From: a virus
Reading direction: 5' to 3' (one strand)
IMG/VR virus record: IMGVR_UViG_3300012920_000380
Location: 1 to 20,035 of that record
Length of the DNA stretch: 20,035 bases
This document shows, piece after piece, positions 1 through 20,035 of this stretch (position 1 is the first letter of the stretch; every line of letters begins with the position of its first letter). Both the position numbers and the translations under genes were made by a program. The notes beneath the pieces were generated by a model that had not been told where the DNA came from, did no database searches, and saw nothing but the letters and a program-made list of their open reading frames with translations.

Positions 1-1
1 A

Positions 2-1760: not shown

Positions 1761-1765
1761 ATAAT

Positions 1766-2695: not shown

Positions 2696-2703
2696 GGATA
2701 GTA

Positions 2704-2943: not shown

Positions 2944-3371
2944 AAAAACCAAAAACAATATTTGATCATTTAGCTGGCATTACATTTAAGAAAACTAAAT
3001 GGGAAGATTTAACAGAAGCAGACCAGAAGTCATTTTCTCCATATTTGATTAATCGGTGGTTATCAATGTCGCCTCAATTAATTGAAATAGTAGACATGTT
3101 TCAACATTATACAATAGGTCCTTTAACTAGAGAACATGTTTATAAATTATATTATGATATCTTACCTAAAGGAAAGTTCTTTTCAAAATATATAAAAGGT
3201 AAAAAGGCAAATAAATTTAACGAACAATTGGTCAATCTAATTGCAAAACATTTTCAGATAGCAAAAAATGAAGCAGAAGAATATATTACTTTGCTAGATA
3301 AAGATCAATTACATATGTTATGTAAAAAATATGGTAAATCTGATAAAGAAATTAAACAATGGCTAAAATAA
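2940..3371 (+). CDS. Clamp-loader small subunit, T4 gp62-like
   Basis: In T4, gp62 joins four gp44 subunits to make the clamp loader. This 143-residue protein is shorter than T4 gp62 (187), but its segment ILPKGKFFSKYIK (74-86), followed by LVNLIAKHFQIAKNEAEEYI, closely parallels the gp62 stretch AVPRGKRYGKWAK followed by LLAKRYQVNTNDAINY. The N-terminal half has a helix with NRWLSMSP (38-45). The comparison is from memory, but it covers about 35 aligned positions and the genomic context agrees. It has no ATPase motifs, as expected. It overlaps the next gene by 13 nt. Confidence 0.75.
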   Translation: MKKPKTIFDHLAGITFKKTKWEDLTEADQKSFSPYLINRWLSMSPQLIEIVDMFQHYTIGPLTREHVYKLYYDILPKGKFFSKYIKGKKANKFNEQLVNLIAKHFQIAKNEAEEYITLLDKDQLHMLCKKYGKSDKEIKQWLK

Positions 3372-5313: not shown

Positions 5314-5711
5314 AAATAGCAATTGTGGGCAGTAGAACATATGAAAATACAAGAAAAATAAAAAATCTACTCACAGAACTCAGAAGAAAATTCGGCGAAG
5401 ATTTGATTATTATATCTGGAGGTGCAAAACAAGGTGCTGATAAACATGTAAAAAAATATGCATTAGAATTTGGATTAAATTATAAAGAATTCAATCCTGC
5501 ACATACTCCTCAAAATTTATATAGTGCTATGTCAGAAGGATATTATGCAAAACCTTATCATGTATCTCAATTTCATCATAGAAATATGCTAATAGCAAGA
5601 GATTGTGATTATATGATAGCTTTGATACCAGGCGGATCCAAAGCGAACGGCTCAGAAAGTGCTATAAAGCAGGCTGTAAAGTTAAATAAACGGGTGGTTA
5701 TCATTACTTAA
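5310..5711 (+). CDS. SLOG-superfamily protein, DUF2493/YspA-like
   Basis: A 133-residue single-domain Rossmann-like protein with the DUF2493 pattern: GSRTY (7-11) after the first strand, SGGAKQGAD (36-44) in the nucleotide-binding loop, a KKYALEFGL helix, then RNMLIARDCDYMIALIPGG (about 91-109) and a last strand RVVII. SLOG proteins bind nucleotides or nucleotide-derived ligands, and some act as sensors or effectors in conflict systems. Here it is co-translated with a nuclease. A role sensing or sequestering a host signal nucleotide is only an inference. A 35-nt gap follows. Confidence 0.85.
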   Translation: MKIAIVGSRTYENTRKIKNLLTELRRKFGEDLIIISGGAKQGADKHVKKYALEFGLNYKEFNPAHTPQNLYSAMSEGYYAKPYHVSQFHHRNMLIARDCDYMIALIPGGSKANGSESAIKQAVKLNKRVVIIT

Positions 5712-5746: not shown

Positions 5747-7201
5747 ATGCAAAAATTAGAGTTACCTAAACTTAAAAAGATCGATCCTAACAAACCTAAA
5801 AAGAAAAAAATACTTTTATTATCAGACGACTTAAGAGTACATTCTGGTATAGGAACAATGTCACGTGAATTTGTATTGGGTACAGTAGATAAGTATGATT
5901 GGGTACAAATCGGAGCTGCAGTTAAACATCCAGATGAAGGTAAAATATTTGATATATCAGCAGATGTACAAAAAGAGACAGGAGTACAAGATGCGGATGT
6001 TAAAATTTATGCTTCGTCAGGCTATGGTAATGCTCAGATATTACAACAAGTTATGAATAGAGAGCGACCAGATGCAATATTACATTTTACGGATCCGAGA
6101 TTTTGGCAATGGTTATATCAAATAGAACATTCTATCAGACAACATGTTCCGATAATGTATTATAATATTTGGGATGATTTGCCATATCCATTTTGGAATG
6201 AGCCTTTCTATGAATCATGTGATTTAATAATGAACATATCACGACAGACTCAAAATATTGTAAAAAATGTATTACGAAAATTTCCAAAACCAGATTGGGC
6301 AGTGCAATGGGTGCCTCATGGTGTTAATGAAAATAAATTCTTTCCAATAACTCCATTACATCCACAGTATGATGAATATCAAAAATTTATAAAAACATTT
6401 AGCGGCGAATTTAATTATGATTTTATATGTTTTTGGAATAATAGAAATATACGTAGAAAACAGCCTGGAGATTTAATATTAGCATATAAACATTTTTGTG
6501 ACAAATTACCACCGGAACAAGCATCTAAATGTGTTTTACTAATGCATACACAAGGTTCTGATCCTAATGGCACTGATTTATTTGCAGTTAAAGATGCTAT
6601 TTGTCCAGATTATAATGTAATATTTAGTACTAAACCTGTAGATACAAAAATATTAAACTTTTATTATAATATGGCAGATGTAACAATTAATATAGCTTCA
6701 AATGAAGGATTTGGTATATCATGGTGTGAGTCGCTTCATGCAGGGACTCCTATAATTAATAATGTAACTGGCGGATTGCAAGATGGTTGTAGATTCGAAA
6801 CTGAAAATGGCGAATGGATTGAATTTGATACACATTTTCCGACTAACCATGATGCAACATATAAAACTCATGCTAATTGGTGTAAACCGGTATATCCAAC
6901 AAATAGATCACTTCAAGGTTCGCCTATGACGCCTTATATCTTTGATGATCGTGTTGCATTTAAAGATGTTGCAGATGCTATAAAATATTGGTATGATATG
7001 GATGAAGAATCGAGAGATGCATGTGGCATGGCCGGACATGATTGGGTATTAGACGATGAATCAAATATGTCAGCAAAAAATATGTCGCGAAGATTTATAG
7101 AATGTATCGATGAATGTTTAGAAAAATGGACAAAGAGAAAAAAGTTTACATTATATAAAATAAATAAAAAAGAAAAAATAAAAAATCCAGGAGTTATATG
7201 A
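5747..7201 (+). CDS. GT-B glycosyltransferase, GT4-like (first gene of glycan cluster)
   Basis: A 484-residue glycosyltransferase. The N-terminal Rossmann half begins at KKKILLLSDDLRVHSGIG with the glycine-rich acceptor loop. The C-terminal half has WVPHGVNENKF, then SNEGFGISWCE carrying the E320-x7-E328 donor-binding pair typical of GT4 retaining enzymes, and AGTPIINNVTGG. A basic N-terminal tail holds LPKLKK (6-11) and a KPKKKK run; the same LPKLKK motif ends the next protein twice. No membrane segment is seen, so it is a cytoplasmic enzyme using a nucleotide sugar. The donor and acceptor cannot be told from sequence. Its stop overlaps the next start by ATGA. Confidence 0.88.
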   Translation: MQKLELPKLKKIDPNKPKKKKILLLSDDLRVHSGIGTMSREFVLGTVDKYDWVQIGAAVKHPDEGKIFDISADVQKETGVQDADVKIYASSGYGNAQILQQVMNRERPDAILHFTDPRFWQWLYQIEHSIRQHVPIMYYNIWDDLPYPFWNEPFYESCDLIMNISRQTQNIVKNVLRKFPKPDWAVQWVPHGVNENKFFPITPLHPQYDEYQKFIKTFSGEFNYDFICFWNNRNIRRKQPGDLILAYKHFCDKLPPEQASKCVLLMHTQGSDPNGTDLFAVKDAICPDYNVIFSTKPVDTKILNFYYNMADVTINIASNEGFGISWCESLHAGTPIINNVTGGLQDGCRFETENGEWIEFDTHFPTNHDATYKTHANWCKPVYPTNRSLQGSPMTPYIFDDRVAFKDVADAIKYWYDMDEESRDACGMAGHDWVLDDESNMSAKNMSRRFIECIDECLEKWTKRKKFTLYKINKKEKIKNPGVI

Positions 7202-7203
7202 AA
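7189..7203 (+). promoter_or_regulatory. Strong ribosome site plus start, shared 15-mer
   Basis: AGGAG (7189-7193) lies 4 nt before the ATG at 7198, inside the end of the previous gene. The 15 bases AGGAGTTATATGAAA recur exactly at 17486-17500, before another glycosyltransferase-like gene. This is a strong site where most junctions have none. Confidence 0.6.
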
Positions 7204-8559
7204 CCATTAGTTGTAGTTCAAGGACCTGTCACTACAAGATCAGGTTACGGTAATCATACAAGAGACATAGTTGCAAGTTTAATTCAATCAGAAAAATATG
7301 AAGTAAAAATAGTATCATTGCCATGGGGTTCAACGCCGACAGATGCATTAGAACCTGATAATGAAATACATAATAAAATAGCAAAATGCATATTAACACA
7401 ATCATTGACAAGACAGCCTGAAGTTTTTATACAAGTATCTGTACCTAATGAGTTCGGTATGATATTAGGTCCTGATGGCAAATTTAAAGAACATAAGGTA
7501 GGCAAATATAATATAGGCATTACTGCCGGCATCGAAACAACAAATGTATCGCATGACTTTTTGATAGGATGTAATAGAATGGATTTAGTAATTACTACAT
7601 CGGAGCATTCAAAAAAAGGATTTATCGATACGGTATATGATAGAGTAGATGAAAATACAAAACAAAAAGTAGGTGATTTGAAGTTAGATACTCCTATAGA
7701 AGTTTTGTTCGAAGGATTAGATTTAAATACCTATCATAAAACAAATGACTTACATGAATCAGTAATCAATGAATTATCTTCTATAAAAAATAAATTTTGT
7801 TATTTGTTTGTCGGTCATTGGCTAAAAGGTGATATAGGACAAGATAGAAAAGATATAGGAATGTTAATCAAGACATTTTGTGAAACGTTTAAAAATAAAG
7901 CAGCTCGTAATAAACCAGCATTAATTTTAAAAACAAGTAGTGCAACATTTTCTATAATCGATAGAGATGATATGATGAAAAAAATACAAGAAATTATAAC
8001 TCCATATGGTAACAAAGCTCCAGAGGTATACTTATTGCATGGCGATCTTTCTGATTCAGAAATGAACTCATTATATAATCATCCAAAAATTAAAGGTATG
8101 ATATCATTTACTAAAGGGGAAGGTTTCGGTCGTCCATTATTAGAATTTACAGTTACAGAAAAACCTGTTATTGCAAGTAATTGGTCTGGTCAAACAGATT
8201 TCTTAAAACATTCTGTATTATTACCTGGCGAATTAACTGAAATACATCCATCTGCTGCAGATCAATTTTTATTGAAAGGATCCAGATGGTTTACTGTGAA
8301 TTACCAGTATGCATCACGTATATTAAAAGATGTCACAGAAAACTATAAAAAATATTTGCCGAATGCTAGATCACAGAGTAGATTTAGTAAAGAAAATTTT
8401 AGTTTTGATATAATGTCAAAAAAATTATGTGATTTAGTTGATAAAGGATTAGAAGGAGTTCCTACACATGTCGGATTGAAATTACCTAAATTAAAGAAAG
8501 TAGGAGAATCTAATACTGCTAAATTAAAATTACCTAAATTAAAGAAAGTTGAAGCATGA
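7198..8559 (+). CDS. GT-B glycosyltransferase, GT4-like, with C-terminal LPKLKK repeats
   Basis: A 453-residue enzyme. The N-terminus GPVTTRSGYGNHTRD carries the glycine-rich acceptor loop, followed by a domain with ITAGIETTNVSHDF. The C-terminal Rossmann domain has LLFVGHW-like FCYLFVGHW and GEGFGRPLLEF, with the E308-x7-E316 donor pair. The last 25 residues are a basic tail containing LPKLKK twice (429-434 and 445-450), encoded by a 23-nt perfect direct repeat. It is probably paralogous to the previous gene in overall plan but clearly diverged. No membrane segment or signal is visible. It is coupled to both neighbours by ATGA overlaps. The sugar is unknown. Confidence 0.87.
   Translation: MKPLVVVQGPVTTRSGYGNHTRDIVASLIQSEKYEVKIVSLPWGSTPTDALEPDNEIHNKIAKCILTQSLTRQPEVFIQVSVPNEFGMILGPDGKFKEHKVGKYNIGITAGIETTNVSHDFLIGCNRMDLVITTSEHSKKGFIDTVYDRVDENTKQKVGDLKLDTPIEVLFEGLDLNTYHKTNDLHESVINELSSIKNKFCYLFVGHWLKGDIGQDRKDIGMLIKTFCETFKNKAARNKPALILKTSSATFSIIDRDDMMKKIQEIITPYGNKAPEVYLLHGDLSDSEMNSLYNHPKIKGMISFTKGEGFGRPLLEFTVTEKPVIASNWSGQTDFLKHSVLLPGELTEIHPSAADQFLLKGSRWFTVNYQYASRILKDVTENYKKYLPNARSQSRFSKENFSFDIMSKKLCDLVDKGLEGVPTHVGLKLPKLKKVGESNTAKLKLPKLKKVEA
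8479..8549 (+). repeat. Two-copy 23-nt direct repeat encoding LPKLKK
   Basis: Bases 8479-8501 and 8527-8549 are identical, 48 nt (16 codons) apart, at the 3' end of the glycosyltransferase gene. Each copy encodes the core KLPKLKKV. The spacing keeps the reading frame, so the duplication adds a second peptide motif. A diverged copy at 5762-5779 encodes the same hexapeptide with other codons. Confidence 0.9.
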
Positions 8560-9038
8560 AATTAGATTATGATGCGATATCTCCTATTACTGGTAATGAA
8601 TGTGTAATAGTAGAAGCAGATCAAAAAACAAATATTAATTCATATATGTGTATGGAATCTGGTTATACTACAACAGATAACTTTATAATAGATTCAGATC
8701 ATGTACATGAATACGAAAATCAAATATCTGATTTAATGAAATCGGTTAAATTTATAGATGAAGAATTAGGATTAGTATGGTATCCAGCATTTCTAAATAT
8801 TCCAGGCGTGGGAATGCTTTATTGTTCTGGTAAAAGTCAAAGGACAATGAGATGGGAAGTTGCATCAACTGTAGAAATTGTAGGCGAAGAACGTTTAAAA
8901 TTTCCTATACCAGGAAAAGAAGGAGAATATTTTACATCTAAACTTGATACGGATAATGCTCAAGTATTTAAAAAACATGAGTTTGAAACTGCATTAGATC
9001 ATTTTTATAGTTTAGTTAACAAGGTATATGCACAATGA
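8556..9038 (+). CDS. Conserved-looking phage protein of unknown function
   Basis: A 160-residue soluble protein, mixed alpha/beta. It opens with DAISPITGNECVIVEAD, which looks like a small treble-clef-free start rather than a zinc site. Later features are ESGYTTTD, ELGLVWYPAFLNIPGVGM, a TMRWEVAST strand and a PIPGKEGEYFTSKLD loop. I recall similar proteins in large T4-like phages, always unnamed. It sits between two glycosyltransferases with ATGA overlaps on both sides, so it should belong to the same pathway, perhaps as a partner subunit or acceptor. No catalytic motif can be assigned. Confidence 0.6.
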   Translation: MKLDYDAISPITGNECVIVEADQKTNINSYMCMESGYTTTDNFIIDSDHVHEYENQISDLMKSVKFIDEELGLVWYPAFLNIPGVGMLYCSGKSQRTMRWEVASTVEIVGEERLKFPIPGKEGEYFTSKLDTDNAQVFKKHEFETALDHFYSLVNKVYAQ

Positions 9039-9670
9039 AAATAAGTTATGCAACATTGGTACATAATGAACGCATGGAAATTGAACGTTTATTAAACTAT
9101 TTAGTTAAATATAAAAACGCGGAAGATGAAATCGTAATAATGCTTGATTCTCAAAATGTAACTAAAGATGTTAGACAATATGTCGAAGATTTTGTTTTAT
9201 CACATAAAGAAGATCATTACATTGTTTTATGTTCGCATCCATTAAATAAAAATTTTGCAAAACATAAAAATTACTTATCAAGACAGTGTTCAGGCGATTG
9301 GATATTTTTAATAGACGCAGATGAATGGCCTGACGAATATTTAATGTCATCATTACGTTATATTATCGATCAAAACCCAGAAGTTGAAGCATATTTCGTA
9401 CCAAGAATAAACGAAGTTGATGGTATAACTGCTAAACATATGGCACAATGGGGATGGAATGCTAATGATAGAGGATGGATAAATTTTCCAGATTATCAAA
9501 TGAGAGTTTATAAAAATGATGATAAAATAATGTGGGAAGGATCGGTGCATGAAAGATTAACCGGTTATAAACAGTATAGTTCATTACCATCCAATAAAGA
9601 ATATTGTTTATGGCATCCTAAAGATATCAAAAGACAAGAAGTTCAGAATAAGTTATATGATACCATATGA
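9035..9670 (+). CDS. GT-A glycosyltransferase, GT2-like
   Basis: A 211-residue family 2 type enzyme. It has an ATLVHNERMEIERLLNYL start (nucleotide-binding strand and helix), KHKNYLSRQCSGDWIFLIDADEWP with the metal-binding D94-A-D96, then FPDYQMRVYKNDDKIMWEGSVHERL, a segment common to WaaE-like and beta-glucosyltransferase-like GT2 proteins. It is shorter than the 250-300 usual for the family but has the full core. No membrane helix is seen, so it is not a processive synthase. ATGA overlaps tie it to genes on both sides. Confidence 0.87.
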   Translation: MKISYATLVHNERMEIERLLNYLVKYKNAEDEIVIMLDSQNVTKDVRQYVEDFVLSHKEDHYIVLCSHPLNKNFAKHKNYLSRQCSGDWIFLIDADEWPDEYLMSSLRYIIDQNPEVEAYFVPRINEVDGITAKHMAQWGWNANDRGWINFPDYQMRVYKNDDKIMWEGSVHERLTGYKQYSSLPSNKEYCLWHPKDIKRQEVQNKLYDTI

Positions 9671-10701
9671 TCAAAATAAAATTATATGAACATGAAAAGC
9701 ATCGTAATGAATGCGCATTTCGTCCTTATTCGGCTGCTCAAAACATATTACGAGATATAGGTATTGAATTTACTCAAGGCGAATCATATGACTATGCATG
9801 GATAGCTCAAGCTAGTTTTTTAAACAAAAAAGTATCATTAGAACAATCAGTTAATGATGGATTAGAATTTTTATCTAAAATTACTGGCGATTATATGCTA
9901 CTTGATGGGCAAGATTCTACATCATTAATAGGATCATATGAGGTGTTTAAAGAATCTAATGCTTTACTATTAATGAAAAATAGTTTATTAAAGGATAGAT
10001 CTTTATATAAACAAAAATCGGCGTTAGGAAGATATTATTGGGGTTCTGGAGATTATGCATTATCTGATTTCGACGAATATTCAGATAGAATAGTATTATC
10101 AGGTACGAATTGGTTATCAACACACTGGTCTGGGATAAACGTTCAGTGGTATAATATTGATAGGCCTAGAGAGTATGATGTATCAGCCATGTTTCAATAT
10201 CCTAGTCCTAAAAAAGTTTATGAGCATGATATGATTCAAAGTGACTACTATGATGCCTTTAGACGACCTGCTATCGAACAAATAAACGACCTAACATGGT
10301 CTATCAAAGTAGCAAAATTAAATAATGGTATTCGAGTATCTCAAGAAGAATATTATAATAGAACATTCAATTCAAAAATATTATTCGCGCCATATGGATA
10401 TGGAGAAATGGCACCTAGAGATTTAGAGGCTGCAATGTTCGGTTCTATACTAATAAAGCCAGACATGTCATATATAGATACAGTACCAAATGTGTTTACA
10501 GACCAAGAAACATATATAGCATGTAAACACGACTTCAGTGATTTAAACGAAAAAATTATAGAAATACTAGGAAATTACAAAAAATATTATTATATTATAC
10601 AGAATGCAAGAAAGAGATTTGAACAAGAAATGTCGCACGAGAAATTGGCAATACATTTACATACCATGTTTAAAAATTTAAAAGGGGTTAGTGTTGGATA
10701 A
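9667..10701 (+). CDS. Glycosyltransferase-like protein with GT-B C-terminal domain (CgeB/GT1-like)
   Basis: A 344-residue protein. The C-terminal part, FAPYGYGEMAPRDLEAAMFG followed by SILIKPDM and a closing ENYKKY-like helix (GNYKKYYYIIQNARKRFEQ), matches the glycosyl transferases family 1 domain found in CgeB-like proteins, where R/E residues of the APRDLEA segment bind the donor. The N-terminal half is diverged and could bind the acceptor. No membrane segment is visible. It is linked to the preceding gene by ATGA, and its end overlaps the next start by 11 nt. The donor sugar cannot be inferred. Confidence 0.7.
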   Translation: MIKIKLYEHEKHRNECAFRPYSAAQNILRDIGIEFTQGESYDYAWIAQASFLNKKVSLEQSVNDGLEFLSKITGDYMLLDGQDSTSLIGSYEVFKESNALLLMKNSLLKDRSLYKQKSALGRYYWGSGDYALSDFDEYSDRIVLSGTNWLSTHWSGINVQWYNIDRPREYDVSAMFQYPSPKKVYEHDMIQSDYYDAFRRPAIEQINDLTWSIKVAKLNNGIRVSQEEYYNRTFNSKILFAPYGYGEMAPRDLEAAMFGSILIKPDMSYIDTVPNVFTDQETYIACKHDFSDLNEKIIEILGNYKKYYYIIQNARKRFEQEMSHEKLAIHLHTMFKNLKGVSVG

Positions 10702-11710
10702 CAAGTTAATTATATTTGGACCATGGTGTGGTGAATTTAGTTACGAAATAAAATGGTGGATACCAGAAATTCGTAAAGTAAAAAATGAACAGTTTAAAGA
10801 CTGGGATGCTATAGCTATAGGGTTCGATGGCAGAAAAGTATTATATGAAGATTTTACTGATGCATACATTTCATATCCAAAAGAAATTAATGATACATTA
10901 ACATATCCTGCAACTTATGGCGAACATATTGCCGGTAAAGGAGATATAATACCAGATAATTTAAAAGAATTTGCAACTAATATTGCTAGGCATTATCAGG
11001 AACAAGGTTATATGGATATTAAAATATGGTGGCCTAATACTATTCCTATATCAGCTGAAAGAACATTATCTGATACTATTTTTGGAGAAACAAAACATTA
11101 TTCAGCTAGAAAGGAAATATTAGATTCTATTCGTAAGGAAATAAAATTTGATAATAATCGTGATACAATAGCAATTATGGCACGTAATAGGTGTAGAAAC
11201 GGTATCGTAGATCGTGAAACATGGAATCCAGAACATTGGATGACATTGATAGAAAAAATTATCATAGAATTAAAATTAAATATAGTATTTATTAATTTAG
11301 AATCAAAAGGATCTTCAGGCGGCTCATATAATTTTTCAGATCATCCTATATGTAAAAAATACGAAAAAAACATAAAACAAATAAATATCGCCGGCGAAAA
11401 TTCTGTGGAAATACAATTTGCAATTTTGCAAAATACTATTTGTAGTATATTTGGTGCTACCGGATCCGCTTTTTTAGCATGTCTTGTAAATTCAAATTTA
11501 TTCACTCAACAGACAAAAGAGAATGGATATAGACTCAATGTGGAATTTAATCAAATGAAAAATAATCTAGACTCAGATGATATAGATTTAAAAAGGCCTT
11601 ATATTTTTGATAAGTATGATTACGCTAATTTTTGGGATTCGTCGCCTATAGAATTATTTGATGAATTTAAAAAATATTATTTAACATTATTAACAGAAAA
11701 AAAATTATGA
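10691..11710 (+). CDS. Putative GT-B fold glycosyltransferase
   Basis: Up to 339 residues. The start is GTG at 10691 or TTG at 10694; a G-rich ribosome site (AAAGGGG, 10681-10687) lies 3 or 6 nt before them, so TTG has the better spacing. No ATG lies near the N-terminus. The protein begins IIFGPWCGEFSYEIKWWIPEIR and later has TIAIMARNR, WNPEHWMTLIEKI, LNIVFINLESKG and SIFGATGSAFLACLVN, a layout like the donor half of heptosyltransferase- or fucosyltransferase-type GT-B enzymes. This is a fold-level guess without an assignable catalytic residue. It could instead be a sugar-binding or unrelated Rossmann protein. Confidence 0.6.
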   Translation: MLDNKLIIFGPWCGEFSYEIKWWIPEIRKVKNEQFKDWDAIAIGFDGRKVLYEDFTDAYISYPKEINDTLTYPATYGEHIAGKGDIIPDNLKEFATNIARHYQEQGYMDIKIWWPNTIPISAERTLSDTIFGETKHYSARKEILDSIRKEIKFDNNRDTIAIMARNRCRNGIVDRETWNPEHWMTLIEKIIIELKLNIVFINLESKGSSGGSYNFSDHPICKKYEKNIKQINIAGENSVEIQFAILQNTICSIFGATGSAFLACLVNSNLFTQQTKENGYRLNVEFNQMKNNLDSDDIDLKRPYIFDKYDYANFWDSSPIELFDEFKKYYLTLLTEKKL

Positions 11711-12885
11711 TACCTTTATTTAAAGTATTTATGGCACCGACAGCAAAAGAAAAGGTCGGCGAAGTATTAGATAGTGGTTATATCGGCCAGGGTGCAAAAG
11801 TTGACGAATTTGAAAAACAATTGAGTCAATATTTCGGCAATAAACAGATTGTAACAACTAATTCTGGGACATCTGCATTACACTTAGCGTTACATCTATT
11901 GAAAAAGCCGTTCGATAAAACAGTTACATTCCAAGGATTAGCACAGAAAAAAGAATATTGGCCTGGAATAAATTCTGGGGACGAAGTTCTAGCAACAGCA
12001 TTAACATGTACTGCATCAAATTGGCCGATAGTTGCTAATGGATTAAAAATTAAATGGGTTGATATCGATCCTACTACACTTAATATGGATTTAGATGATC
12101 TAGAAAAAAAGATGACATTAAAAACTAAAGCTATTGTAGGCGTACATTGGGGCGGATATCCGTTAGATCTATATAAAATTACAAAAATAAGAGAAAGATT
12201 TAGGAAAAAACATGGATGGGCTCCTTCGCTAATAGAAGATGGGGCGCATGCTATAGGTACTAAATATAAAGGACATTATTTAGGTAATCATGGTAATTTC
12301 CTAATGAATTCATTACAAGCAATTAAACATGTTACATCAATTGATGGCGGTTTGTTGCATTGTCCGCATCATGAATTATATGAACGTGCTAAATTAGTTA
12401 GATGGTACGGTATCGATCGAGACCCAAAAGGCAGAACAGATTTTAGATGCGAAGCCGATATACCAGAATGGGGATTTAAGTTTCATATGAACGATGTTTG
12501 TGCTGTCGTTGGAATGGAAAATTTTAAGCATCTAACAGAAATAACAAATACACATAAATCAAATGCAGCTTATTATGATAAAAATTTACAAAATGTAGAA
12601 GGCGTTACTTTATTAACTCGAGAAGACGACTTTGAATCGGCATTTTGGATATATTCTTTATTGGTAGATGATAGAGAAGGATTTTATAAACATATGAAAG
12701 AATGTGGAATTACAGTATCGCAAGTTCATGAACGTAATGATAAACATAGTTGTATGTCAGAGTTCAAAGCGCCATTACCTAATTTAGATAAGATAATCGG
12801 AAAGGTAGTAAATATACCAGTAGGGTGGTGGGTTTCAAAATCAGATAGAAAATATATTGTGGAATGTATTAAAAAAGGATGGTAA
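11707..12885 (+). CDS. PLP-dependent sugar aminotransferase, DegT/DnrJ/EryC1/StrS family
   Basis: Transfers an amino group, usually from glutamate, to a keto-sugar nucleotide, giving an amino sugar. The 392 residues are of family length. N-terminal YIGQGAKVDEFEKQL and TNSGTSALHLAL bind phosphate and PLP, D178 in IEDGAHAIGT contacts the pyridine ring, and K207 in SLQAIKHVTSIDGG is the Schiff-base lysine. An insertion of about 15 residues precedes GDEVLATALTCTASN. No dehydratase or oxidase making a keto sugar lies in the window, so that step must come from the host or from genes outside. ATGA joins it to the upstream gene. Confidence 0.94.
   Translation: MIPLFKVFMAPTAKEKVGEVLDSGYIGQGAKVDEFEKQLSQYFGNKQIVTTNSGTSALHLALHLLKKPFDKTVTFQGLAQKKEYWPGINSGDEVLATALTCTASNWPIVANGLKIKWVDIDPTTLNMDLDDLEKKMTLKTKAIVGVHWGGYPLDLYKITKIRERFRKKHGWAPSLIEDGAHAIGTKYKGHYLGNHGNFLMNSLQAIKHVTSIDGGLLHCPHHELYERAKLVRWYGIDRDPKGRTDFRCEADIPEWGFKFHMNDVCAVVGMENFKHLTEITNTHKSNAAYYDKNLQNVEGVTLLTREDDFESAFWIYSLLVDDREGFYKHMKECGITVSQVHERNDKHSCMSEFKAPLPNLDKIIGKVVNIPVGWWVSKSDRKYIVECIKKGW
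12874..12879 (+). promoter_or_regulatory. Ribosome site deciding the start at 12885
   Basis: AAAGGA ends 5 nt before the ATG at 12885 but overlaps the alternative ATG at 12879. This favours 12885 as the start, giving a TAATG one-base overlap with the aminotransferase stop. Confidence 0.6.
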
Positions 12886-13529
12886 TGAATTTAATAAAAT
12901 ATGATATAAAAAAATATCCATTTTCAGATATAATAAAAGATTTATATGAAATAAATAATCTAGAACTTATACATAAACAATGGAAAAATGCTCGCGAATA
13001 TCATTTATTAGATGATGTACGAACAGATCAAACAACTGTATATCATAAACATTTTTATAACACTATTAGTACGACTAATTGGTATGAAGTATATAATAAA
13101 TTTATAGTAGAAGTAATTCGTCCATTGTTCGATGATGAAATTTTATATCAACGGATTCCGACATTTAGAGTTCATCAACCAAATAATTTAGCAGTTGCCG
13201 CTTATCATAGAGATAGTGAATATTCACATTCAACACATGAGATAAATTTCTTTTTGCCATTAACGCGTGCATTTGATAATAATACTATCTGGGTTGAAAG
13301 TGAAAAAGATAAGAAAGATTTTGCTCCTATGAATTTAAATATAGGCGAATGTGCTCAATGGGATGGAGCTAACTTATTACATGGAAATAAAACAAATGAT
13401 ACAGGCGTTGCAAGAGTAAGCGTTGATTTCAGAGTGTTACCGGCCAAAAAATATCAGGAAAATAAATTGACAAGTATTACAAATAACACAAAAATGATAA
13501 TAGGAGATTATTGGTCAAGATGTATTTAG
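12885..13529 (+). CDS. StrG-like cupin/2-oxoglutarate dioxygenase-fold protein
   Basis: About 214 residues from the ATG at 12885 (an ATG two codons earlier is less well placed). The central part FRVHQPNNLAVAAYHRDSEYSH, EINFFLPLT, NTIWVES and LLHGNKTNDTGVARVSVDFRV has the double-stranded beta-helix layout of StrG (streptomycin biosynthesis) and phytanoyl-CoA dioxygenase relatives. Possible iron ligands are H108, D110 and H166, with R177 placed to bind 2-oxoglutarate. If active, it would hydroxylate or oxidise a sugar or the acceptor. It follows the aminotransferase, a pairing also known from aminoglycoside-type sugar pathways. Residue numbers are counted from 12885. Confidence 0.75.
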   Translation: MNLIKYDIKKYPFSDIIKDLYEINNLELIHKQWKNAREYHLLDDVRTDQTTVYHKHFYNTISTTNWYEVYNKFIVEVIRPLFDDEILYQRIPTFRVHQPNNLAVAAYHRDSEYSHSTHEINFFLPLTRAFDNNTIWVESEKDKKDFAPMNLNIGECAQWDGANLLHGNKTNDTGVARVSVDFRVLPAKKYQENKLTSITNNTKMIIGDYWSRCI

Positions 13530-14125
13530 AATATCCGATAGAATCATCATATTATTGTAATAACTTAGGAGCAGCTACAGGTGTCAATCATTTTTATCCT
13601 GGGATCGGCCGTACTCTATATAATTATATAATAGATGCTAAGCCAAATGTAATAATTGAATTCGGTGTTTTACATGGATTTTCGACAACGTGTATGGCAC
13701 AAGCATTAAGAGATATAGGTACCGGAAAAATATATGGATATGATTTATGGGAACGTGAAAAATATAATCATGGGCAACGACTTTCACAAGTTAAGAATAC
13801 TTTAGAAAAATATAACTTAAATAAATTTGTAGAATTAAGATCTGGAGATATATTTAATGTATTGCAGTCAAATGATATTGATTTTGAATATGTCGATTTA
13901 ATACATATTGATGTAAATAATGATGGCGATAAATTATCTCGTATATTCGACTTATTACAGACGAAATCATATAACGGAGATATCTTGTTTGAGGGAGGGA
14001 TAGAAGCGCGCGATAATTGTTGGTGGATGAAAAAATTTAATAAATCACCAATATGTAATTTACAATTTGAAATTTTAAATTTAAATTATCCAGGGATTTC
14101 AAGAATTAAACAAAAAAGGAATTAA
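13511..14125 (+). CDS. Class I SAM-dependent methyltransferase-like protein
   Basis: Up to 204 residues. A TTG at 13511 lies 4 nt after AGGAG (13502-13506), while the ATG at 13520 has no close site, so the start is uncertain between the two. Motif I is VIIEFGVLHGFSTTCMAQAL (E50, G52, G56 counted from TTG), then KIYGYDLWE (motif II), VELRSGDIFNVL and the acidic strand YVDLIHIDVNNDGD. This resembles the methyltransferase_24 / cephalosporin-hydroxylase-like group often found in glycan loci. It overlaps the dioxygenase-like gene and is 2 nt from the radical SAM gene. It probably methylates a sugar hydroxyl; the substrate is unknown. Confidence 0.8.
   Translation: MVKMYLEYPIESSYYCNNLGAATGVNHFYPGIGRTLYNYIIDAKPNVIIEFGVLHGFSTTCMAQALRDIGTGKIYGYDLWEREKYNHGQRLSQVKNTLEKYNLNKFVELRSGDIFNVLQSNDIDFEYVDLIHIDVNNDGDKLSRIFDLLQTKSYNGDILFEGGIEARDNCWWMKKFNKSPICNLQFEILNLNYPGISRIKQKRN
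14116..14120 (+). promoter_or_regulatory. Shine-Dalgarno site of the radical SAM gene
   Basis: AAGGA, 7 nt before the ATG at 14128, fixes that start so that the CxxxCxxC motif falls at residues 13-20. Confidence 0.65.
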
Positions 14126-14127
14126 AA

Positions 14128-15135
14128 ATGAATTATACTTTGGAAATAACAACAAAAATTGGTTGTTCCAATATGTGTGAATATTGTCCTCAGACTAAAC
14201 TTATACGGAGATACAGAGCTAATGGTCATATGAAAACATTAAACGAAAATATGAATAATGCGAGCGATAACATACATTTAGCGTTTATGAACGAGTATCT
14301 GAAAATGGATAAAAATCGAGAAACAATGATGTCTGTTGACACATTTAAAAAATGTTTGTCTACTATCGATAATGCCGTTGATATACATTTTTCTGGGTAT
14401 GTGGAAGCATTTGAAAATCCTAATGCAATTGAAATGGTAGAACATGCTGTAAACAAAGGACATAATGTAGGTATCAATACTACATTAATGTTTATGACTA
14501 AAGAAACAATCGATCGTTTAGTAAAAATCGGACGATTTAAACATTTTCATGTTCATACACCGTCAGCAACATATTTTGAAACTATAGGTCGTATTGGAAA
14601 GACACCATTCCTAAAAAATATACCAGAAGACCAAGGAAAAGTTAAAAAAGAAATATCAGAAAAATATTTTGATTTATTAGATTATATGATTGATAATGCT
14701 AGATCGGTAGGTGCACATTTTCATACACATAGTGCGCCGGGAAAGGCGTTACATCCAGAAATAGAAGAACGATTCGGAGATCGTATACGAGCAGTCGGGT
14801 ATAGAAATAGAGGTTTAAATTCTAGAGCTGGCAACATAGGTAAATTAATCGGAGAAGCTTTATGGAAAGATAATTGGTGTAAACGTATTATACAAAATGT
14901 ATTATTGCCAGATGGCAGTGTACAATTATGCTGTCAGGATTATGGATTAGAAGAGCCTATAGGAAATTTATTACATATGCCATATCATGCATTATTTGAA
15001 ACAAATCGATTCAAAGAAATAATGGCAGGTAAAGCTTCCATATGTCAACGATGTGATGATGGCGTAGCAGTACCAAATGATCAAAAGCAAAAATTAAGTT
15101 CTATGCAACATTATGAAAATGAATGGAGAAAATAA
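14128..15135 (+). CDS. Radical SAM enzyme with C-terminal SPASM-like cysteines
   Basis: A 335-residue protein with the radical SAM motif C13-x3-C17-x2-C20 (GCSNMCEYCPQ), which holds the 4Fe-4S cluster that cleaves SAM. A VDIHFSGYVEAFENP segment matches the glycine-rich SAM-binding strand region. The C-terminal part has C251, C268-C269, C306 and C309, with LPDGSVQLCCQDYG and IGNLL, the usual features of a SPASM or twitch domain holding extra Fe-S clusters. SPASM enzymes act on peptides or on sugars, for example as epimerases or dehydrogenases. In this cluster a carbohydrate substrate is likely, but a peptide acceptor cannot be excluded. It abuts the next gene exactly (TAAATG). Confidence 0.9.
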   Translation: MNYTLEITTKIGCSNMCEYCPQTKLIRRYRANGHMKTLNENMNNASDNIHLAFMNEYLKMDKNRETMMSVDTFKKCLSTIDNAVDIHFSGYVEAFENPNAIEMVEHAVNKGHNVGINTTLMFMTKETIDRLVKIGRFKHFHVHTPSATYFETIGRIGKTPFLKNIPEDQGKVKKEISEKYFDLLDYMIDNARSVGAHFHTHSAPGKALHPEIEERFGDRIRAVGYRNRGLNSRAGNIGKLIGEALWKDNWCKRIIQNVLLPDGSVQLCCQDYGLEEPIGNLLHMPYHALFETNRFKEIMAGKASICQRCDDGVAVPNDQKQKLSSMQHYENEWRK

Positions 15136-15981
15136 ATGTATCTAGATATATACAAAATTAATAATACACTAAATTTAGATGAAAATGAATGTTTTCATGA
15201 TGAAAAAACATATCCTAATTTTCAAAATGATCTACAGAATTTTAAGACGCATATAACGCGATTAGTCAATAATAAAGAATCTGCTACATTTTATAAATTC
15301 GGTGACGGTGATTATAGATTTTTGTTAAAAGAACATGTCGGTAGTGCAATGCCCGGTAAACGCGCATTAAGTAAATCATATGATGAAATAGATCATACTG
15401 CGTTTATAGAAGGAGCTCAAAAATGTGATTATTATACATGTGAAATATATCCAAGAAATAGAAATATGTTTCGATCGGTTATTAGTAGACCAATTGATTA
15501 TCCTGCAGAATACGGGTATGGATTGATAGCTAATAAATGGTTTTTCGAAAGATTTGCAGGACGTATTGGATTGTTAGGTGCTAGTGAAAAATTATATCTT
15601 ATTGAAGAATTAATGACACATAAGAAATATCAAAATTATCTTGGATTAGAATCATTTACTGATTATATACATTTTCCTCAAAAATATGCAGCCGATGATA
15701 TAAAATTGGTTGAAGAATTTGTAGGTAAACAATTAAAGAAATCCAGAGCTGATATATTTTTGTTAGGAATTGGTCATGCTAAATCTGCATTGTTACATAC
15801 ATTTAAAAAGTATAAGTCAGCAGTTTATCTGGATGTCGGTACTGGAATTGATATGATAGCAGGATGTATGAATACCGGCCGGCCATATGCAGGAAATTGG
15901 AAAAATTTTAGATTATCAGATTACGATTATTCAGAAATAGATTATTTAAAGTATAATGGAGCAAATGAAGTTTTATTATGA
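15136..15981 (+). CDS. GT-D fold glycosyltransferase-like protein
   Basis: A 281-residue protein. SATFYKFGDGDYRFLL, with G56-D57-G58-D59, resembles the R-x-GDGE segment of GT-D (DUF1792-type) enzymes, where the DxE pair binds metal and UDP-sugar; here it reads DGD. The later IFLLGIGHAKSALLHTFKKYKSAVYLDVGTGIDMIAG fits the second Rossmann-like part, where the family has DvG...D. GT-D enzymes add the third or later sugars of bacterial serine-rich adhesin glycans, which suggests transfer to a glycosylated protein here. A GGAG site (15125-15128) is 7 nt before the start. The stop overlaps the next start by ATGA. Confidence 0.7.
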   Translation: MYLDIYKINNTLNLDENECFHDEKTYPNFQNDLQNFKTHITRLVNNKESATFYKFGDGDYRFLLKEHVGSAMPGKRALSKSYDEIDHTAFIEGAQKCDYYTCEIYPRNRNMFRSVISRPIDYPAEYGYGLIANKWFFERFAGRIGLLGASEKLYLIEELMTHKKYQNYLGLESFTDYIHFPQKYAADDIKLVEEFVGKQLKKSRADIFLLGIGHAKSALLHTFKKYKSAVYLDVGTGIDMIAGCMNTGRPYAGNWKNFRLSDYDYSEIDYLKYNGANEVLL

Positions 15982-16760
15982 ATGTAGTATTTTGGACTGG
16001 AATAAAAAATGAATCATTATCTACTAAATATGGCGGATTCGATTGGATGGACTATTCAAAACAGTCATGGCAATATTGGTGTAATAAAAATAATGTTGAA
16101 TTAGTCACATTTGAACAACCATACACTGATTTATCATTACATAGAGCCAATTGGCAAAAAGCAGTACATTGTTGGGATATATTAGATAAACGCTATATAG
16201 ATGCTGATAATGTATTTTTAGCAGATGCATCATCTATAATTAAATGGGATGCTCCTAATATATTTGATCAGATAGATGATAGATTTGTAGCATGGAACGA
16301 TTTAGATAATTTAAAATGGGTTTATGATAGCGTCAAAGGTTATGAATCATTTTTTGGATTTGAATTAGATATAACAAAATATGTAAATTCAGGAGTTATT
16401 ATTTTCAATCAGACACATAGAAACTTTTTTGAATCTTTTAAACAATTATATTATGAAAATTCAGAAAAATTTATTATATTACAAGATAAAGATGTAAGAA
16501 AAGGAACAGAACAAACTCCATTTAATTATTGGTTGCAAAAACATAATATCGAATTGAATCTAGAAATGCCTGTTACATGGAAATTGACTCATTTACATAG
16601 AAAAGAAATGTTAGGACATAATTGGCAATTAAAAGAAGATAATACTCCATTTTTTATTAAACATGGATATCTTTGGTTTTTTACAGGATTTGATAAAATG
16701 CAAAGATCACAAATAATGACACAAGTATGGAATATGATAAAGCATAATTATGAAACGTGA
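15978..16760 (+). CDS. GT-A glycosyltransferase-like protein with altered DxD (first of a tandem pair)
   Basis: A 260-residue protein, homologous along its length to the next one. Shared landmarks are SW..WC.KN near residue 35, the strand before the metal motif, an N-[SA]-G segment (YVNSGVIIFNQTHR here), a GT-[ED]-Q-x-P-x-N-Y helix (GTEQTPFNYW) and LxRKEML. At the metal site this copy has D83-A-S85 (ADASSIIKWD) where its neighbour has DAD. The lost second Asp may weaken metal binding or change the mechanism. An Asp five residues on (KWD) could compensate. It overlaps the next gene by 11 nt. Confidence 0.72.
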   Translation: MNVVFWTGIKNESLSTKYGGFDWMDYSKQSWQYWCNKNNVELVTFEQPYTDLSLHRANWQKAVHCWDILDKRYIDADNVFLADASSIIKWDAPNIFDQIDDRFVAWNDLDNLKWVYDSVKGYESFFGFELDITKYVNSGVIIFNQTHRNFFESFKQLYYENSEKFIILQDKDVRKGTEQTPFNYWLQKHNIELNLEMPVTWKLTHLHRKEMLGHNWQLKEDNTPFFIKHGYLWFFTGFDKMQRSQIMTQVWNMIKHNYET

Positions 16761-17505
16761 TATAGTATTTTTAACTGCAATAACATTCCCCGGACAAGAA
16801 TATAGAAGTGCGCCATATAAGTATGGAATCGATTCTTGGAAGCATTGGTGTAAGAAAAATGATTGTGATTTATTTGTTTTGGATGAGCCTATATTCGATC
16901 CAGAATATTGCAAACCAAATTTTTATAGATATTGGGCTTTTGATTTGTTAGATGCTCAAGGAGTTGAATATGATCAGATTTGTTTGACAGATGCTGATTG
17001 TATTATACATCCAGATTGTCCAAACTTCTTTGAACTAACAGATCGTAAATATACAGTAACTAATACAGAAGGAAGTATGGATTGGGTTTGTAGAAGTTTA
17101 GAAAATTACGGTAAATATATTTTTAAAGATACATTTCCATTACATAAATATTTCAATGCTGGTTTTCAAGTAGTGAATAAAATTCATAGACCATTATTTA
17201 ATCAGTTACATGAATTTTATGAGCAAAATAGGGAACAGATACTTTGGATGCAGAGTAATTTTGCAGTAGGTACAGATCAGCCATTAATTAATTACATAGT
17301 AAATTTATCTGGTATGAATATGAAGTTTCTGCATTATCAATACTGTATGGCCGATTTAGCTAGAAAAGAAATATTAGATGAGAACATGACATTTACGAAA
17401 GTATTAAAAGGAATATATCAATTCAATGCAATACCGGATAACAAGAATGCAGAAAAAACGATGTATTGGATGAAAAGAACGTACGAGGAGTTATATGAAA
17501 ACTAA
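16750..17505 (+). CDS. GT-A glycosyltransferase-like protein with intact DxD (second of a tandem pair)
   Basis: A 251-residue partner of the previous gene. D81-A-D83 in LTDADCIIHPD is a canonical metal- and nucleotide-binding site. YFNAGFQVVNKIHR resembles the NaG.llin segment of GT8-like enzymes, and GTDQPLINYI follows. The C-terminal half carries LARKEIL as in the paralogue. No membrane segment is seen. There is no evident ribosome site, and the gene starts 11 nt inside the preceding one, so re-initiation after termination is likely. The donor is unknown. It is probably an inverting or retaining sugar transferase on the same acceptor as its twin. Confidence 0.75.
   Translation: MKRDIVFLTAITFPGQEYRSAPYKYGIDSWKHWCKKNDCDLFVLDEPIFDPEYCKPNFYRYWAFDLLDAQGVEYDQICLTDADCIIHPDCPNFFELTDRKYTVTNTEGSMDWVCRSLENYGKYIFKDTFPLHKYFNAGFQVVNKIHRPLFNQLHEFYEQNREQILWMQSNFAVGTDQPLINYIVNLSGMNMKFLHYQYCMADLARKEILDENMTFTKVLKGIYQFNAIPDNKNAEKTMYWMKRTYEELYEN
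17486..17500 (+). promoter_or_regulatory. Strong ribosome site plus start, second copy of the shared 15-mer
   Basis: AGGAG (17486-17490) lies 4 nt before the ATG at 17495, within the end of the preceding gene. It is identical over 15 bases to 7189-7203. Confidence 0.6.
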
Positions 17506-18442
17506 ATTTGCTATAGGCTGTTTGATTCAATGGTATGAATGTGATATCATAGAAGAATATGTTGAAACATTAAAAGATAGCTTAAATGAATATGATGGTC
17601 AAGTTATAGTCGATTTTACTATCGCAGGTAATCAAGATTTAGAAAAATGTATATCAGAAGAACAACATACAAAATGCATTGAAAAAATAAATACTATTTG
17701 TAATTTTGGCAATATACAATATACGGATGATTTATATACTATAGCAGATTATAGAAGAGAGTTCAATGAAAAATATTGTGATAAAGTAGATGTATTAGTA
17801 TGGGGTGAATCGGATTCTTTATTACCTAAGCAAATGTTTATTATATTAAATGATCTTCATCAGATGTCAATACAGAATAACAATCCTAAATATTTAGCAT
17901 TCTTTGGCACATGCAAAATGTGGGATGATACATGGAAAGTATTAGAACATCCGGATTTTACCGATAAGCCATTTATAGGAGGTGATGAAAAGAATTGGTG
18001 GAGTCTACGTTATGATATGACAAAAGATGAAATGAATACGATTAATGATAAAACAGAAGAATTAGATGTTCGTATAGTATCACCACATAAGTTTAACGGA
18101 TGTGGATTAGTGATATCTTCTGAAGTAATTAAAGCAGGAGTTAATATTCCAAGATCAGTATTTTTTATTCATGAAGATTCAGCGTTTATGAATATGACAA
18201 ATAAAGTGTTAGGTAATATACCTCAGTATGTTATAAAAAATATTTTGTTAGTACATAATAGAAAACATAAGAACAAAAGAAAATATATTAAAGGCGAAGA
18301 TCATTTAGCTGATAAGGATCCTGGAGGTAAACGATTGACACATGATTGGTATATGAAAGCAAATAAAATATGTGAACAAAATTATATCAATCTATTTAAT
18401 CCAAAATATAAATCATATACATGGAAAGACGTATGGGAGTAA
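17495..18442 (+). CDS. Putative GT-A glycosyltransferase-like protein
   Basis: A 315-residue protein. VDVLVWGESDSLLPKQMF places E105-S-D107 where GT-A enzymes have DxD, after a strand and a YRREFNEKY helix that resemble GT2-like cores. PHKFNGCGLVISSEVIKAGV and FFIHEDSAFMNM (a HEDS acidic segment) resemble the second half of such enzymes. The C-terminal LVHNRKHKNKRKYIKGEDH is strongly basic. The call is at fold level only; it could also be a non-catalytic relative. It starts 11 nt inside the previous gene and ends inside the acetyltransferase gene. Confidence 0.62.
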   Translation: MKTKFAIGCLIQWYECDIIEEYVETLKDSLNEYDGQVIVDFTIAGNQDLEKCISEEQHTKCIEKINTICNFGNIQYTDDLYTIADYRREFNEKYCDKVDVLVWGESDSLLPKQMFIILNDLHQMSIQNNNPKYLAFFGTCKMWDDTWKVLEHPDFTDKPFIGGDEKNWWSLRYDMTKDEMNTINDKTEELDVRIVSPHKFNGCGLVISSEVIKAGVNIPRSVFFIHEDSAFMNMTNKVLGNIPQYVIKNILLVHNRKHKNKRKYIKGEDHLADKDPGGKRLTHDWYMKANKICEQNYINLFNPKYKSYTWKDVWE

Positions 18443-19233
18443 AAAATATACATCATACAGCTATAATAGGAGATAATGTAACAATCAATTGTAATGAATT
18501 TACATTGGGTGCTAATTCTGTTATCAAAGATGGCTGTACTATCAATTGTAATAAATTTGTAGCTAAAGAAGGCTTATATATGTGTGAAGGAGTTGAGATA
18601 GGAAGAGGCGGATGTAACGGTCCTAATTCAAATGTTTATATTGGTTCTAATGTAGGTATATTTGAAAGGACTATAATCAATCCATCAGATGAAGTTCATA
18701 TAGGAGATAATGTAGGTATAGGCGGTGAGGTGATGATATGGACGCATGGAGCTTGGTTAGATGTTATGCAAGGGTTTCCTGCAGACTTCGGGCCAGTAAA
18801 AATTGGAAATAATGTTTGGTTACCTGCAAGAAGTATAGTATTACCAAATGTAGAAATAGGAGATAACACAGTAATAGGAATCGGATCTATTGTCAATAAA
18901 AATATTCCTGCAGGAAGTTTAGCAGCAGGATCTCCTTGCAAGGTTATCAAAGAGAATTATTATCCCCGTAAATTAAGTGAAGAAGAAAAGAAAAAAATTG
19001 TTTGGGATATATTGGAGGGCTGGTATAAACTACATGAGATGAAGGGCATTAATGCAAAAGCTAAATATGTTGATGGACAAATCATTTTATTTCAAGGAGA
19101 TAATCAGACAATATATGATGTCAATGAAAAAATTATGTTTGGTTACGAAAATGATGTTAGTGAAGATTTAAGAGACTATTTGAGACGTAGAGGTATAAAA
19201 ATATTTACAGATAAACCATTTAAATCAATATGA
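18421..19233 (+). CDS. Hexapeptide-repeat (left-handed beta-helix) O-/N-acetyltransferase
   Basis: Up to 270 residues. The start at 18421 overlaps the previous gene by 22 nt; an ATG at 18433 gives a 10-nt overlap and is at least as likely. The first 190 residues show the I-G-x-x-x-x repeats of a left-handed beta-helix (IGDNVTI, IGSNVGI, IGDNVGI, IGNNVWL, IGDNTVI), with IWTHGAW carrying the likely catalytic H109 (from 18421) and the family close AAGSPCKVIKENY. The donor is expected to be acetyl-CoA. About 75 further residues form an extra C-terminal domain absent from plain maltose-acetyltransferase types. It overlaps the deacetylase gene by ATGA. Confidence 0.88.
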   Translation: MERRMGVKNIHHTAIIGDNVTINCNEFTLGANSVIKDGCTINCNKFVAKEGLYMCEGVEIGRGGCNGPNSNVYIGSNVGIFERTIINPSDEVHIGDNVGIGGEVMIWTHGAWLDVMQGFPADFGPVKIGNNVWLPARSIVLPNVEIGDNTVIGIGSIVNKNIPAGSLAAGSPCKVIKENYYPRKLSEEEKKKIVWDILEGWYKLHEMKGINAKAKYVDGQIILFQGDNQTIYDVNEKIMFGYENDVSEDLRDYLRRRGIKIFTDKPFKSI

Positions 19234-19850
19234 AGTTTTTAGGATTCAATAAAGTATTATGTTTATCACCTCATCCAGATGATGTAGAATATTCAATGTC
19301 AGGTACTATAATAAAATACGAAGATACTCACTTTGATATTGTAACATTAACTAATGGCGGAGACTTTGATAAAACTAATATACATCCACGTACAAATGAA
19401 GTGGTAGAATTTTGGAAAGGTATAGATAATGTATCATTACAGTTCGGACGTGATGAATCATTTAAATGTATGGATGAAGCAGGATGGATTAATTATATAG
19501 AATCTAATTGCTTACAAGATCACCAAGCGATAATGTTAACAAATGATCATGATTCACACTTTGAACATAGGCTAGTTTCACAATTTGGTTATGCATTAAC
19601 AAGAATAAAGCCTATATCTCTTATTGAATATATGTCGCCCTCTACTCAAAGAATGTGGCAACCAAATTTATATGTTGATATTAGTGCACAATATGTGCAA
19701 AAAAAATTAAGACTAGAATCATTTATGTCACAAAAAGATAGATCATATTTTCAAGAAGAACAGATAAATGGATTTCATACAGAATTTCAGTGTTCTAAAA
19801 AAGGTATAACAATAGTAGAACAGTTTAATATTAAACAAGATTTTAAATGA
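19230..19850 (+). CDS. PIG-L/LmbE-family N-deacetylase
   Basis: A 206-residue protein. The zinc motif PHPDDVE (14-20: H15, D17 as likely base, D18) and the third-ligand region TNDHDSHFEHR (H107, H110, H113; H110 or H113 as the zinc ligand) are both visible, so the active site looks intact. The family removes acetyl groups from GlcNAc-type sugars on lipid, small-molecule or nucleotide carriers. It overlaps the acetyltransferase gene, which carries the opposite chemistry, by ATGA. A removal-and-replacement scheme on an amino sugar is an inference. It also overlaps the next gene by ATGA. Confidence 0.88.
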   Translation: MKFLGFNKVLCLSPHPDDVEYSMSGTIIKYEDTHFDIVTLTNGGDFDKTNIHPRTNEVVEFWKGIDNVSLQFGRDESFKCMDEAGWINYIESNCLQDHQAIMLTNDHDSHFEHRLVSQFGYALTRIKPISLIEYMSPSTQRMWQPNLYVDISAQYVQKKLRLESFMSQKDRSYFQEEQINGFHTEFQCSKKGITIVEQFNIKQDFK

Positions 19851-20035
19851 AAATAGCATTTTTTACAGAAGGCGGATATACTGGCAAGGTACCTAGAAGT
19901 CATACTAATATGCGTACTGATCTTGCATGGATATGTGCATTAGATGCAATACATTATCCTATTGATTCAATACATCAAATAAGTTATGAAACAAAATTTG
20001 ATTTAGGAATAGTTATCATACCTAAAAACAAAGAA
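19847..20035 (+). CDS. 5' part of a probable glycosyltransferase-like gene (cut by window end)
   Basis: 63 codons are visible from the ATG at 19847, open to the last base. The start overlaps the previous stop by ATGA. The N-terminus MKIAFFTEGGYTGKVPRSH looks like the first strand and acceptor loop of a GT-B Rossmann domain, followed by NMRTDLAWICALDAIHYPI and the strand DLGIVIIPKNK. I recall similar starts among unnamed phage glycosyltransferase-like proteins. No catalytic motif can be seen yet, so the call is provisional. Confidence 0.5.
   Translation, partial: MKIAFFTEGGYTGKVPRSHTNMRTDLAWICALDAIHYPIDSIHQISYETKFDLGIVIIPKNKE

Follow-up and report, generated by a model that had tools for sequence, protein, structure and literature searches.

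A conserved glycosyltransferase core and an exchangeable sugar cassette in T4-like phages, possibly serving variable virion glycans

What is made by the long sugar-gene cluster on the IMG/VR virus contig IMGVR_UViG_3300012920_000380, and on what is the product built? Large clusters of this sort have long been known from marine T4-like phages, and proposals have ranged from a change of the host surface to filler DNA. The window analysed here is the entire contig of 20,035 bases, in which 17 consecutive plus-strand open reading frames (ORFs) run from 5747 to 20035 without a single opposing gene; neighbours mostly share a few bases at the stop/start junction. Since the contig itself stops at 20035, gene 17 (from 19847) is truncated and the cluster is incomplete in the window. 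A preliminary description, made from the DNA letters alone, had read this run as a cytoplasmic glycan factory beside a T4-like replisome. The ORF layout bears out the 17-gene run, and matches to GT1, GT2, DegT, Methyltransf_24, radical S-adenosylmethionine (SAM)/SPASM, hexapeptide transferase and PIG-L profiles place its sugar chemistry well above chance. That observation was largely right, and its cytoplasmic, no-export interpretation is partly supported. What is new is an architecture of conserved core and variable cassette, the exchange of cassettes between near-identical phages and an LPxLKK tag common to two core enzymes.

The core comprises two GT-B-type glycosyltransferases (GTs), a protein of 160 amino acids (aa) with a new fold and a GT2; it recurs in hundreds of contigs, and its order is kept in the relatives read in a gene-neighbourhood comparison:

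5747..7201, plus strand: G11, core gene 1, GT-B with N-terminal LPKLKK tag (PF00534, 7.7e-6)
7198..8559, plus strand: G12, core gene 2, GT-B (GT1-type profile, 1e-5)
8556..9038, plus strand: G13, core gene 3, 160-aa protein (confident model, pLDDT 94.2)
9035..9670, plus strand: G14, core gene 4, GT2 (PF00535, 2.2e-11), the last conserved gene before the exchanged cassette

Both GT-Bs lead to the same solved structure, the chlorovirus enzyme B736L (3oy2). It is the best profile match of G11 (8.8e-12), and the B736L of chlorovirus NY2A is the top solved Foldseek match of the G12 model (E 4.3e-18, TM 0.59/0.68); the relationship is distant, at ~14% identity over the fold. The sugar donor that B736L binds is GDP-mannose (PMC4691112). 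In the G12 model (pLDDT 89.7), residues 1-420 are well modelled and the tail, 421-453, is disordered. For G13, a search of the PDB gave no solved relative (no match at E<=0.001), and a single relative was found among the predicted viral structures of BFVD.

Related stretches in viral contigs number 219 for the first GT-B (G11) and 549 for the second GT-B of Flavobacterium phage vB_FspM_immuto (Immutovirus; hereafter immuto), which together with Microcystis phage Mel-JY01 represents the cultured phages carrying the pair. In the annotation of Mel-JY01 the first GT-B (L083:19962-21453) is split into two neighbouring genes, which hints at a frameshift or an error in sequencing. In Rhodothermus phage RM378 two less closely related GT-Bs also lie side by side (profile E 6.7e-43 and 7.7e-8), within what looks like a minimal core (L223:7857-13958): the GT-B pair and then two GT2-like genes, beside replication genes and without a sugar-modification cassette. 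The 484-kb phage LR756508 retains the order nuclease, SLOG protein, first GT-B. A megablast comparison of the window with phages gave no match.

Long contigs share a fixed order of nuclease, SLOG, GT-B, GT-B, G13 and GT2, followed by a variable block. How sharp this boundary is can be seen most clearly in the contigs L004 and L008: every one of 16 consecutive genes, from the replisome up to and including core gene 4, has its counterpart at 88-99.5% identity, and directly after the core no counterpart exceeds 42% identity. Because phages are mosaic in general, a control was needed, in which pairs were grouped by the identity of their nuclease (G09) and 6.8 kb upstream was compared with 6.5 kb after the core. 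Where G09 is 85-97% identical (n=5 pairs), 96% of genes are shared upstream and 13% after the core; among less similar pairs, in classes reaching down to 50% identity, the values are 81-84% and 4-9%. Judged from these comparisons, the sugar block appears to be exchanged wholesale between near-identical phages, much as bacterial surface-antigen genes are, and its abrupt replacement may reflect the pattern of antigen loci selected for difference.

The cassette of the window consists of the following genes:

9667..10701, plus strand: G15, likely glycosyltransferase (weak; PF13524, 0.0023), a frequent first cassette gene
10691..11710, plus strand: G16, no significant family in Pfam or other profiles
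11707..12885, plus strand: G17, DegT/PseC-like sugar aminotransferase (PF01041, 1.7e-66; PseC 8.5e-58, below cut-off)
12879..13529, plus strand: G18, 2-oxoglutarate (2OG)-Fe(II) oxygenase-like protein (TIGR04324, 6.6e-10, below cut-off; HxD motif)
13511..14125, plus strand: G19, methyltransferase (Methyltransf_24, PF13578, 8.9e-14)
14128..15135, plus strand: G20, radical SAM/SPASM protein (PF13186, 9.3e-5; CxxxCxxC at residue 13)
15136..15981, plus strand: G21, possible GT-D-type protein (FGDGD motif only; no significant family)
15978..16760, plus strand: G22, GT-A-like by its DxD motif only, part of a second conserved framework
16750..17505, plus strand: G23, paralogue of G22
17495..18442, plus strand: G24, recurring in 12 of the 12 long contigs read
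18421..19233, plus strand: G25, hexapeptide sugar O-acetyltransferase (PF00132, 2.4e-12; NF007076, 6.3e-21, below cut-off)
19230..19850, plus strand: G26, PIG-L/LmbE deacetylase (PF02585, 3.1e-8)
19847..20035, plus strand: G27, truncated; full-length relatives of ~300-337 aa lie near the cluster's 3' end

The count of about nine glycosyltransferases given in the preliminary description is higher than profiles sustain: they support the genes at 5747, 7198 and 9035 and, weakly, that at 9667 (G15 also matches the protein O-glucosyltransferase 9w47 weakly, 0.0085). The genes at 10691, 15136, 15978, 16750, 17495 and 19847 have no significant family, which leaves the count unproven. Pfam scans of G16, G21 and G27, PDB profile searches of G22/G23 and G24, and a Pfam scan of one full-length G27 relative gave nothing significant, and G24 had no match in the phage collection searched. 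As to folds, GT-B and GT2 stand by profile, and the GT-D assignment at 15136 comes down to its FGDGD motif. The protein at 12879, described as StrG-like, has an HxD motif and matches, with a score below the family cut-off, TIGR04324, which NCBIfam names 'sporadic carbohydrate cluster 2OG-Fe(II) oxygenase'.

In relatives the variable block holds a second recurring framework, G22-G23-G24, often trailed by G27, GT2, epimerase and UDP-sugar-dehydrogenase-like genes. Clusters that could be delimited (n=8) are 18.6-24.9 kb long and contain 22-27 genes, virtually all of them on the same strand; a ninth, in contig G004, was set at 20 genes, its end marker being absent. Nucleotide-sugar enzymes dominate the cassettes, whose types include GDP-mannose dehydratase, PseB, FnlA, UDP-sugar dehydrogenase, aminotransferase, carbamoyltransferase, WbqC, PIG-L and methyltransferase. 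The 25 commonest families in the clusters include no nucleotidyltransferase, so the activated sugars are probably host-derived.

The tag that the two GT-Bs share lies at opposite ends of the proteins, as one LPKLKK at the N-terminus of G11 and two copies at the C-terminal end of G12:

5762..5779, plus strand: LPKLKK tag, codons 6-11 of core gene 1
8482..8550, plus strand: tail of core gene 2, with its two LPKLKK copies

Residues L6, P7, K8, L9 and K11 are invariant across 24 first-GT-B sequences, as are L429, P430 and L432 across 43 second-GT-B sequences. The tail motif, in strict or near form, is kept in most of ~160 relatives, members of the immuto group lack the N-terminal copy, and the strict motif occurs in no other protein of 12 long contigs. 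That so short a motif is conserved in a disordered tail and recurs in the neighbouring enzyme suggests that both enzymes bind the same partner; the tag may thus tether both GT-Bs to one scaffold or acceptor. G13 co-occurs with the tag nearly everywhere and was considered as that partner; a Mel-type contig (L133) has two tag copies without detectable G13, so that G13 is not obligatory.

How might these parts work together? The explanation that we favour, tentatively and at slightly less than an even chance, is that a modular line of cytoplasmic enzymes builds a variable oligosaccharide, most likely on an exposed virion protein. Soluble enzymes of the 4,6-dehydratase/epimerase, aminotransferase, acetylase, methylase and oxygenase types would convert host nucleotide sugars into rare sugars, the set varying between phages. 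The conserved glycosyltransferase trio (the two GT-Bs and the GT2, on either side of the 160-aa protein) would build an inner oligosaccharide while the tags hold both GT-Bs on their partner, and the exchangeable cassette would add variable outer sugars. Exposed on the virion, such a glycan would give the particle a swappable surface type. The more specific proposal of a serotype-switching, O-antigen-like virion glycan in T4-like phages of Bacteroidota, assembled wholly in the cytoplasm by an enzyme complex, with its two inner GTs joined by the tag and cassettes exchanged as a unit, is conceivable and commands less of our confidence.

Several tests bear on where the glycan goes. On the Kyte-Doolittle scale, no 19-residue stretch of any protein of the window exceeds 1.7, in line with the absence of transmembrane helices reported before, and the argument against export also holds among the relatives. 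The Wzx flippase (PF01943) was found in none of 39 related records, including the complete immuto and Mel-JY01, but did appear in 13 control genomes; the initiating transferase (PF02397) was found in none of 26 records, again including these two phages, but did appear in 9 control genomes. The delimited clusters hold no multi-helix membrane protein of the kind expected for a polymerase, with at most one hydrophobic window per protein by hydropathy only. Neighbourhood comparison across related phages, a check that the preliminary description had proposed, revealed a conserved core and an exchanged cassette. Evidence for DNA as acceptor was sought as well. The thymidylate synthase (TS) family (PF00303) had no match in G001, G002 and Mel-JY01 (contigs of 129.6, 142.6 and 160.8 kb), and the TS of immuto and of the relative L216 carries the ThyA-type Asn, the residue that distinguishes thymidylate synthase from hydroxymethylase. 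TET/JBP dioxygenases were detected in none of 25 records, in a search whose control gave no match anywhere, and DpdA among the records in immuto only. Taken together, the negatives on export and DNA modification leave a virion protein as the best remaining acceptor, a view to which the chlorovirus precedent (PMC7826918) lends some weight: of the two acceptors originally named, the virion protein stands as possible, if unproven, whereas DNA is disfavoured. Two candidates for that protein were discarded. Fibre-like proteins lie just downstream of the cluster in G004 and G012 only, too inconsistently for a fibre gene beside the cluster to be the acceptor, and matches to Ser/Thr-rich segments proved to be ordinary structural and secreted-looking proteins.

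Some observations weigh against a virion glycan. The function of B736L is itself inferred, and many relatives are fragments, the absences being strongest for immuto and Mel-JY01. Mel-type contigs can keep the tag without detectable G13, and the basic tail of G12 could bind membrane or nucleic acid. Moreover, the cluster adjoins replication genes, not structural genes, as do the DNA glucosyltransferases of T4, and the minimal GT set of RM378 is also sited beside replication genes, which leaves a DNA role open. Under DNA hypermodification, the GTs would decorate modified bases as in T4, with larger and variable glycans. Clamp and clamp-loader genes precede the cluster, and the two GT-Bs of RM378 adjoin polymerase and ribonucleotide-reductase genes. 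We nevertheless regard this role as improbable in view of the TS, TET and DpdA results; to our knowledge, clusters of 20-27 genes also exceed the needs of known DNA glycans. On the other side, virus-encoded DNA glycosyltransferases with diverse glycans have been reported (Pyle 2024, as cited in PMC12619734).

The glycan could also enter the host's lipid-linked export route (LPS, i.e. lipopolysaccharide, capsule or the periplasmic O-glycosylation of Bacteroidota) and alter the surface of the infected cell, serving, for example, the exclusion of other phages. The same role has been proposed for the LPS clusters of P-SSM2 (PMC2984593), the cassette content is like that of O-antigen loci, and the tags of both GT-Bs, being basic and hydrophobic, could attach to membrane; several relatives also encode secreted proteins with type IX tails, so the lineage probably places proteins on the host surface. 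Yet such a pathway would rely on the host for initiation, flipping and ligation, and the lack of an initiating transferase and Wzx in the records searched, and of multi-helix membrane proteins in the clusters, makes it an unlikely reading, if a more credible one than DNA modification. Very improbable, in contrast, is a hotspot that gathers host sugar genes as cargo or filler without a coordinated phage function. Cassette content is highly variable, and 'stuffer DNA' has been proposed for cyanophage LPS clusters (PMC3037559), but core order, invariant residues and tag are kept across divergent phages, and these, with the framework G22-G24 and the intact same-strand clusters, point to selection.

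The combination of genes had been thought new; precedents exist in the annotated syntenic cluster of immuto and in the 'LPS gene clusters' of the T4-like cyanophages P-SSM2, S-SM2 and S-SSM7, likewise large sugar-gene blocks in marine T4-like phages (PMC3037559, PMC2984593). The immuto cluster has a syntenic PD-(D/E)XK nuclease, two GT-Bs, G13 and GT2, together with aminotransferase, methyltransferase, acetyltransferase, epimerase and a further GT2, and carries the tag in its G12 tail; unlike in the window, the SLOG gene was not found, the first GT-B lacks the tag and the cassette differs. The cyanophage clusters are sited near hli03, phoH and tRNAs rather than the clamp loader, and S-SSM7, which the phage collection included, gave no match to G11, G12, G13 or G24. 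In chloroviruses, most or all of the machinery for glycosylating the capsid protein is encoded by the virus, and the glycan has a conserved core of five sugars (PMC7826918). They resemble the phage cluster in their virus-encoded enzymes without predicted transmembrane domains and in their conserved inner glycan, which for the phages is a proposal (PMC7826918, PMC4691112); their host is eukaryotic, and their acceptor is known where that of the phage cluster is putative. Wzx/Wzy loci for O-antigen or capsule likewise exchange sugar cassettes beside conserved flanks and use the same nucleotide-sugar enzyme types, whereas in the phage clusters searches for an initiating transferase, a flippase or any further multi-helix membrane protein came out negative. 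T4 DNA glucosylation shares GT-B enzymes next to T4-like replication genes; the phage cluster differs in showing no hydroxymethylase evidence and in having many more enzymes. The moraphages are alike by description: they are large phages of aquatic habitats, their predicted hosts are Bacteroidota, and four groups of glycosyltransferases are near-core in them (PMC12619734).

The conserved core, the sharp exchange boundary and a cultured, sequenced phage, immuto, make the function testable. If the acceptor is the virion, phage surface types would be maintained by cassette exchange, with consequences for how phages adsorb, how stable their particles are and how the immune system recognises them. 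In addition, the clusters offer a supply of soluble enzymes for rare sugars.

Which hosts are involved? Of 25 records, 5 encode type IX secretion sorting domains, and the contigs of L016 and L002, which are among the window's nearest relatives, belong to these; together with the Flavobacterium host of immuto, such domains indicate Bacteroidota hosts for the group. This T4-like phage group is widespread, and many of its members probably infect marine Bacteroidota. The host of Mel-JY01 is a cyanobacterium, so the core is not confined to one phylum. A genome scan also located the core on eight contigs of metagenome-assembled genomes (L121-L128) labelled Pelagibacter, Euryarchaeota, Gammaproteobacteria and Flavobacteriales; a bacterial home was considered and set aside, these being probably phage contigs binned into such genomes. 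A literature search found no paper on immuto's cluster or on Mel-JY01.

Secreted-looking proteins with a type IX tail (PF18962) are encoded at G001:64154-67609 (L087:7154-10609, minus strand; 4e-11) and G006:3029-7153 (L099; 2.8e-12), and also in L129 and L130; the one of immuto (L220, 12691-13422) has a cohesin domain. The long type IX proteins contain many GCTD-type repeats, and 3' of their genes, on the same strand, a protein of 351-377 aa is encoded with a signal-peptide-like start and a terminal Phe, which by eye resembles an outer-membrane barrel and has no convincing Pfam match. The two are possibly a pair of adhesins exposed on the surface of the infected host. Two genes upstream of its type IX cargo gene, immuto encodes a secreted-looking protein with a C-type lectin domain (L220, 10527-11525; PF00059, 3e-15).

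To the left of the cluster lies a T4-like replication module (1..3371), with clamp, dUTPase, gp44-like and gp62-like proteins supported by PHROG matches, in line with the T4-like replisome of the preliminary description, and in an order conserved in relatives; a nuclease and a SLOG-type protein come between it and the cluster:

2-604, plus strand: 200-aa frame, open at the contig's left end
from 601, plus strand: sliding clamp
from 1320, plus strand: dUTPase
from 1766, plus strand: gp44-like clamp loader
from 2704, plus strand: small protein
from 2940, plus strand: gp62-like protein
4378..5313, plus strand: G09, PD-(D/E)XK nuclease, conserved left neighbour of the cluster (Pfam PF12705, 1e-22)
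5310..5711, plus strand: G10, SLOG/YspA-type protein directly 5' of the first glycosyltransferase (Pfam PF10686, 3.3e-10)

In three relatives (G001:100958-102574, G005:32448-34052 and L004:5210-6832), a 534-540-aa protein that is GroEL-like by eye is encoded between the clamp-loader subunit genes, an insertion absent from the window. The window in turn encodes, at 3775-4341, a 188-aa protein without a family match, of which L016 holds a 58% identical relative and G001 a weak one.

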